Part shown: one piece after another, positions 27,018-27,503 of the stretch
Layout of the letters: each line of letters starts with the position of its first letter
How positions within the stretch are numbered: the first letter of the stretch is position 1
Position numbers and translations under genes: made by a program
The notes under the pieces: model-generated
Told to the model about the DNA's origin: nothing
The model's database searches: none
What the model saw: only the letters and a program-made list of their open reading frames with translations
From: Clostridia bacterium
GTDB taxonomy: Bacteria; Bacillota; Clostridia; Christensenellales; UBA1242
DNA: 51,565 nucleotides
Reading direction: 5' to 3'
Assembly (NCBI GenBank): GCA_017621525.1
Contig: JAGASX010000021.1
Location: forward strand, 1 to 51,565

Positions 27018-27073
27018 GAGCGTTGGGCAACGCGTTAAGTGTGCACTTACTTTACTTCATCACAATTTAATAT

Positions 27074-27150
27074 GCGTTCATAGCTCAGCTGGATAGAGCG
27101 TTGGTCTACGGAACCAAAGGTCTGGGGTTCGAATCCCTATGGACGCACCA
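27074..27150 (+). tRNA. tRNA-Arg (anticodon ACG)
   Basis: 77 bases with encoded CCA. Acceptor stem GCGTTCA / TGGACGC (one G-U), D-arm GCTC...GAGC, anticodon stem TTGGT / ACCAA with loop CTACGGA (27106-27112) and anticodon ACG at 27108-27110, which would be edited to inosine to read CGU/CGC/CGA. The T-arm is TGGGG-TTCGAAT-CCCTA. Two bases after the CCA a terminator hairpin begins (ACTTCAC-TTAC-GTGAAGT then a T-rich tract). The 3' end of the gene is repeated downstream (see repeat 27142-27503). GAGCGTTGG from its D/anticodon arms (27096-27104) recurs twice in its own leader. Confidence 0.97.
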
Positions 27151-27503
27151 TAACTTCACTTACGTGAAGTTTTATTATATAGTTATGGGATTCTCACCCC
27201 AAGGGGTTCGATACCTGTCGGCCCAGACCGCGTCGGGGACGCTCCCAGGCTTTGGCTACAAACAAGCGCACCGGCTTGTTTGCTTAACGCGTCGCCCCCT
27301 ATAGACGCACCATAACTTCACTTACGTGAAGTTTTATTATATAGTTATGGGATTCTCACCCCAAGGGGTTCGATACCTGTCGGCCCAGACCGCGTCGGGG
27401 ACGCTCCCAGGCTTTGGCTACAAACAAGCACACCGGCTTGTTTGCTTAACGCGTCGCCCCCTATAGACGCACCATAACTTCGCTTACGTGAAGTTTTATT
27501 ATT
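27142..27503 (+). repeat. Tandem 162-bp repeats starting with the 3' end of tRNA-Arg
   Basis: Two full units (27142-27303 and 27304-27465) and a partial third (27466 to about 27503). Each begins GACGCACCA, the last nine bases of the tRNA. With the preceding bases CCCTATAGACGCACCA matches the tRNA end CCCTATGGACGCACCA at 15 of 16. Every unit then has the same terminator hairpin (ACTTCRC-TTAC-GTGAAGT plus T-rich tract). The rest is visibly more GC-rich than the surroundings and contains a perfect hairpin CAAACAAGC / GCTTGTTTG and GCGTC-GGG-GACGC. The two full units differ by one base (G/A in the loop of the former hairpin), so the duplication is recent or maintained. The arrangement resembles the E. 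coli tyrT repeats that yield rtT RNA. No convincing protein gene lies inside. Confidence 0.9.

Follow-up and report, generated by a model that had tools for sequence, protein, structure and literature searches.

The rtT repeats of Escherichia coli are little understood and have so far been regarded as belonging to the tyrT operon. In strain K-12 the tyrT repeats read GGGGAAGGATGAGAAGCTTCGACC-AA-GGTTCGA-core-ATCCTTCCCCCACCACCA, which is an antisense arm, a sense arm, a hairpin core and a tail, and in the Rfam RtT structure (RF00391) the antisense arm and the tail together form the closing helix. Elements of the MITE and BOX types are non-coding, dispersed, modular and hairpin-forming. CGTC-tagged and GTAG-tagged REP sequences are single hairpins of 20-40 bp, in which a terminal tag adjoins a stem of 8-9 bp (PMC3733652). 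Literature searches on rtT and on the repeat described below returned nothing pertinent.

The window, a stretch of 51,565 nucleotides from a Clostridia bacterium (contig JAGASX010000021.1), contains a tRNA-Arg gene followed by tandem repeats of its own 3' end. A first-pass annotation of the sequence had compared these repeats to rtT, knew of no such locus in the group, and proposed that each unit releases a small RNA by read-through and tRNA processing. The likeness to rtT held when the E. coli tyrT repeats were fetched and found to have the same order of parts, together with T-arm copies in antisense and sense orientation that the annotation had not mentioned; the locus proved not to be unique in its group, and the small RNA was not supported. 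The repeats are one local copy of a hairpin module dispersed through one order of gut bacteria, and we lean, with some reserve, toward reading them as a dispersed module, non-coding and rich in hairpins, that was duplicated in tandem at this site and behaves like a miniature mobile palindrome of REP- or MITE-like kind.

The tRNA-Arg locus

ARAGORN, the Rfam tRNA model and Tandem Repeats Finder bore out the description of a tRNA-Arg(ACG) gene followed by two 162-bp units and a partial third (period 162, 2.3 copies, 27135-27502, score 715; Table 1). If the units are taken to open, as annotated, with the last nine bases of the tRNA, GACGCACCA, the two full ones differ by a single G/A change in the hp2 loop, and when the comparison is extended upstream the tRNA tail and the unit tail agree at 15 of 16 bases (CCCTATGGACGCACCA vs CCCTATAGACGCACCA). 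Every unit contains AACTTCACTTACGTGAAGTT-TTATTAT, a hairpin resembling a terminator (-8.6 kcal/mol when folded as RNA, z -5.0), followed by the GC-rich structured segment that had also been noted, which stands out in an AT-rich region. The earlier description had missed the degenerate antisense T-arm copy and the sense arm, and that the GC-rich part is itself a conserved, dispersed module. Promoter-like sites were found 5' of the tRNA.

Table 1. Parts of the tRNA-Arg repeat locus, in window coordinates.
Feature	Position	Strand	Evidence and remarks
Intact tRNA-Arg(ACG) gene, CCA encoded	27074..27150	+	ARAGORN; Rfam tRNA 65 bits
Repeat unit 1, 162 bp, counted from the tRNA T-stem, overlapping the tRNA tail	27135..27296	+	Repeat finding, Tandem Repeats Finder
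Repeat unit 2, 162 bp, 99% identity to unit 1	27297..27458	+	Repeat finding, Tandem Repeats Finder
Partial unit 3, 44 bp, tRNA tail copy and terminator	27459..27502	+	Repeat finding
Spacer with terminator-like hairpin, stem 27152-27171	27151..27178	+	Hairpin again at 27314-27333 and 27476-27495
Antisense T-arm copy GGGATTCTCACCCC, 11/14 bases, degenerate	27187..27200	+	Again in unit 2; pattern set by relatives
Sense copy of T-arm 5' half GGGGTTCGA, upstream border of the core	27203..27211	+	Sequence and relatives
Conserved core module, copy 1	27203..27298	+	Covariance model R1, 89.8 bits
Helices of core copy 1	hp1 27230-27242; GGC 27248-27250 / GCC 27294-27296; hp2 27259-27267 / 27274-27282	+	Model R1
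Conserved core module, copy 2	27365..27460	+	Covariance model R1, 91 bits
tRNA tail copy after core 1, CCCTATAGACGCACCA, 15/16 bases	27297..27312	+	

Chance is excluded as the source of this tandem structure. Assembly error is unlikely as a general cause, because comparable tandem units occur at other tRNAs in independent assemblies (L036, L044, L050, L100, L160, L161 and L256), though on this particular contig it might still play a part.

Several other identities were considered for the locus and set aside. A 30.6-bit match to Chlorobi-1 RNA on the minus strand is absent from other copies of the module and was attributed to chance. Sequences like an R-box (GCTTAAC/GTTAAGC) are present, but the 7-bp paired R stems of an integron attC site are not. 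No Rfam match to a self-cleaving ribozyme (twister and others) was obtained; there was no phage match, and among the matches listed plasmids matched the tRNA only. On the minus strand just 5' of the tRNA (27018-27060), GGGCAACGCGTTAAG could pair with the core end CTTAACGCGTCGCCC at 14 of 15 bases; by eye this suggested a core remnant, which the R1 model did not support (E=6).

A covarying hairpin module at tRNA genes and elsewhere

The GC-rich segment of the units corresponds to a core module of about 80-95 bp with strongly covarying helices, arranged as hp0, CCAGACC or CAGGTCGC, hp1, GGCTTTGGCTA or CGCTTTGGCTA, hp2, and CTTAACGCGTCGCCC or CTTAACGCGTCGCGC. Among 116 distinct copies, 97.8% of cells in the core helices are paired, and double changes number 300, compared with 80 in shuffles and 14-42 when the partners are slid. 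A P1 closing helix was set aside as a feature common to all copies, the excess of complementarity being only modest. No family in Rfam 15 matches the module.

Close relatives share the module widely. In other genomes of the genus, BLAST recovered the GC-rich stretch without tRNA-Arg, and a covariance model built from genus copies (R1) placed the module in 47 of 112 genus genomes and, across the order, in 125 of 396 genomes and 45 of 142 genera; the genomes surveyed are mostly metagenome-assembled. In a phylum-wide sample of 398 genomes it occurred in none of the 397 besides the source genome. A pattern scan of named genomes returned, among the matches listed, nearly all gut Clostridia or Christensenella MAGs. 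Three viral contigs also bear the module; on one phage-like contig it lies between genes, just upstream of a capsid-like ORF (L286, 1381-1469), a possible route of spread.

The proposed search of relatives found the module beside many tRNAs and not tRNA-Arg alone. It occurs at dozens of tRNA genes in the genus, including tRNA-Trp, Leu, Gln, Asn, Lys, Thr and others, and 50 of 61 genus sites terminate at a tRNA edge (29 at the T-arm, 16 at the D-arm in antisense, 5 at the anticodon arm), compared with 41 of 300 CC-starting control 22-mers drawn from the same tRNA-rich loci. At these sites the intact gene stands next to a partial copy of the tRNA, and the module occupies the T-, anticodon- or D-loop of that copy. 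The order is intact tRNA, spacer, antisense arm, the arm's 5' half in sense orientation (GGTTCGA at T-arms), core, remainder of the arm with the tRNA end, and the spacer again, and the spacer terminator is present at most tRNA 3' sites. A mirror arrangement is found at the 5' sides of tRNAs, where the core lies antisense to the tRNA, in the D-loop. The antisense copy of the same arm is usually upstream of the core, and its longest match is 10.9 nt to the site's own tRNA vs 6.7 nt to other tRNAs, the own tRNA being the better match in 76 of 81 cases.

Two further structures were seen at tRNA-Arg genes. A second, unrelated core, GCGACTGCGTC ... hairpin ... CTTCTCCTTGTC, occupies the D-loop of partial tRNA-Arg copies in the same architecture (L028 of G048, L012 of G044), with weaker occurrences in G135 and G141. 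Short palindromes of antisense and sense tRNA arm without the module core lie 3' of tRNA-Arg at L004, L023 and L028.

In other genera only 37 of 145 module sites end in a tRNA edge. The core is also found as an insert in an intergenic palindrome, a repeat that measures 43 bp when empty and 121-123 bp, 80 bp longer, when filled; both states are represented at loci L145, L146, L200, L247 and L253. At one further locus three cores stand head to tail at a spacing of about 70-96 bp with no tRNA sequence between them (L246, 3627-3866).

DNA module or released RNA, and the proposed means of copying

The main rival to a mobile-like DNA module is a possible rtT-like small RNA, in which read-through and tRNA processing would free a structured regulatory RNA from each unit. 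The architecture is the same as that of rtT, which carries an sRNA annotation in E. coli; the helices are conserved and covary; promoter-like sites precede the tRNA; and 50 of 81 tRNA-linked copies are downstream of the tRNA and co-oriented with it. The other 31 lie antisense at the tRNA 5' side and cannot arise by read-through of their own tRNA. In addition, most copies outside the genus are off tRNAs, the tail copies drift from the sequence of their tRNA, and in the window a terminator stands before each unit. G-U pairs are nearly absent as well: across 143 distinct sequences there are 4 in roughly 1,100 at the first eight hp2 positions, compared with 5.3% in the tRNA stems of the same loci. 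A-C mismatches are commoner than G-U at the hp2 positions, so there is no sign of a favoured G-U intermediate on this strand. Such a pattern does not resemble the outcome of selection on an RNA helix; it speaks, short of proof, for DNA hairpins as the level at which selection or copying acts; repair or re-copying of a palindrome could be an alternative source of such pure Watson-Crick pairing. With more than a third of the tRNA-linked copies lying antisense and so few G-U pairs, the DNA module is the better reading, and we regard the released RNA as unlikely.

Copies at different targets are more alike within one genome than between genomes (permutation p=0.0014), and in one genome (G132) three sites have in common an hp2 flank, GGCTACTCACAAGC, that is absent elsewhere in the genus set. 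Across species, similarity also tends to go with the target tRNA, which indicates that vertical inheritance dominates and that movement is not frequent. We infer that the module, most likely non-autonomous, moves as DNA and is recognized as a single-stranded hairpin. Placed in the T, anticodon or D loop of a partial tRNA copy, with the intact gene alongside, it leaves the tRNA undisrupted. The partial copy usually brings an antisense and a sense arm able to pair with each other and with the tail, and the module would be copied within genomes between hairpin-forming sites by an enzyme or a replication process, arrays presumably growing afterwards by recombination between the repeated tRNA tails. 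The degenerate antisense arm of the window copy counts against this mobile reading.

Candidate enzymes were sought in the same genomes. Y1 transposase was detected in 13 of 112 genus genomes without association with the module (5 of 47 with it, 8 of 65 without), and was found neither in the source genome nor in the majority of the order's module-rich genomes; CGTC repeats likewise have no dedicated transposase (PMC3733652). Reverse transcriptase showed no association either (11 of 47 genomes with the module vs 15 of 65 without), and none of 131 pattern matches was an autonomous version, in which a gene would lie between the hairpins. Tyrosine recombinases are present in 111 of 112 genus genomes and so are uninformative as a driver.

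The same recombinases would be central if the module were a remnant or satellite of tRNA-targeting integrases and the tail copies were att sites. Integrases use the T- and anticodon loops of tRNAs and leave tail duplications, and site-specific integration in tRNA genes involves an overlap of about 7 bp common to element and tRNA at the crossover. The junction of core end and tRNA shares only about CC, too short for a tyrosine recombinase overlap; copies exist in non-tRNA palindromes; and several module-bearing genomes have a single tyrosine recombinase, which we take to be, plausibly, the housekeeping Xer. An integrase origin seems very improbable to us.

A by-product of replication would need no mobile element: nascent strands would fold back at tRNA arms and switch template, with GC-rich sequence as filler. 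An antisense arm followed by a sense arm is the expected trace of two fold-backs, and the coreless palindromes 3' of tRNA-Arg, like the second core at L028 and related places in two further genomes, agree with such a process. Yet a core that is conserved across 45 genera, with its unpaired motifs unchanged, cannot be filler, and the core is also an exact 80-bp insert in unrelated palindromes, which makes this origin a poor prospect in our judgement.

The module beside rtT, REP and MITE-like repeats

On the tyrT control the RtT model scored 133-137 bits, and in the window region it gave no match even at E 10; conversely, neither the R1 model nor blastn of the module matched tyrT. The window repeats have the RtT architecture, with a degenerate antisense arm, and no covariance match to RF00391. 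Because the cores are unrelated by sequence, we class the module as a second family of the rtT architectural kind and not as a member of RF00391. The two are alike in their succession of tRNA, spacer, antisense T-arm, sense GGTTCGA, GC-rich multi-hairpin core and tRNA tail, and in tandem units of about 160-180 bp; they differ in core sequence and hairpins. Both are also dispersed at several tRNAs. In E. coli the RtT core follows tRNA-Pro between eptB and dppA with a tRNA-Pro tail (L319, 1459-1592), and three places in the Lys/Val tRNA operon exceed the Rfam RtT threshold with tails of their own tRNAs (tRNA-Lys unit, L325, 1723-1848), so that the Rfam model places rtT at Tyr, Pro and Lys; core similarity adds Arg, where a shorter version with its own tRNA tail follows the Arg tRNAs beside yqaB (L326, about 900-1000). 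The units at tRNA-Lys, -Pro and -Arg are annotated as 'processed from tyrT transcript' though they lie outside the tyrT operon. The module is also found in antisense orientation at the 5' side of tRNAs and within palindromes away from tRNAs, neither of which was seen among the few rtT places examined.

That many tRNAs of another phylum carry an unrelated core of the same anatomy, and four E. coli tRNA families the rtT core itself, points to a recurrent class rather than an oddity of one operon. Tentatively, at least two phyla may carry a general class of hairpin modules set in the loops of tRNA copies with antisense and sense arms, rtT and the present module being two unrelated cores that one common copying mechanism has handled; such a class, if that tentative reading holds, would so far have gone unrecognised. 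Its origin and mobility could be tested in laboratory E. coli, and the comparison cautions against reading tRNA-tail repeats of this sort as locus-specific regulatory RNAs.

With REP sequences the module shares the character of short, dispersed intergenic hairpins, and differs in that it has several hairpins, contains conserved loops and prefers tRNA arms. A CGTC-tagged REP is defined by CGTC right before an 8-9 bp stem starting AT, a tail CCA and a single hairpin; the CGTC of the module lies in ACGCGTCG, after hp2, and not before such a stem. For a RAYT-moved REP, a Y1 transposase would be expected in carrier genomes, and the survey above gave neither its presence in the source genome nor an association. 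Like MITE and BOX-type elements, the module is non-coding, dispersed, modular and hairpin-forming, but it has no terminal inverted repeats of its own, and the flanking strands that pair come from the target tRNA.
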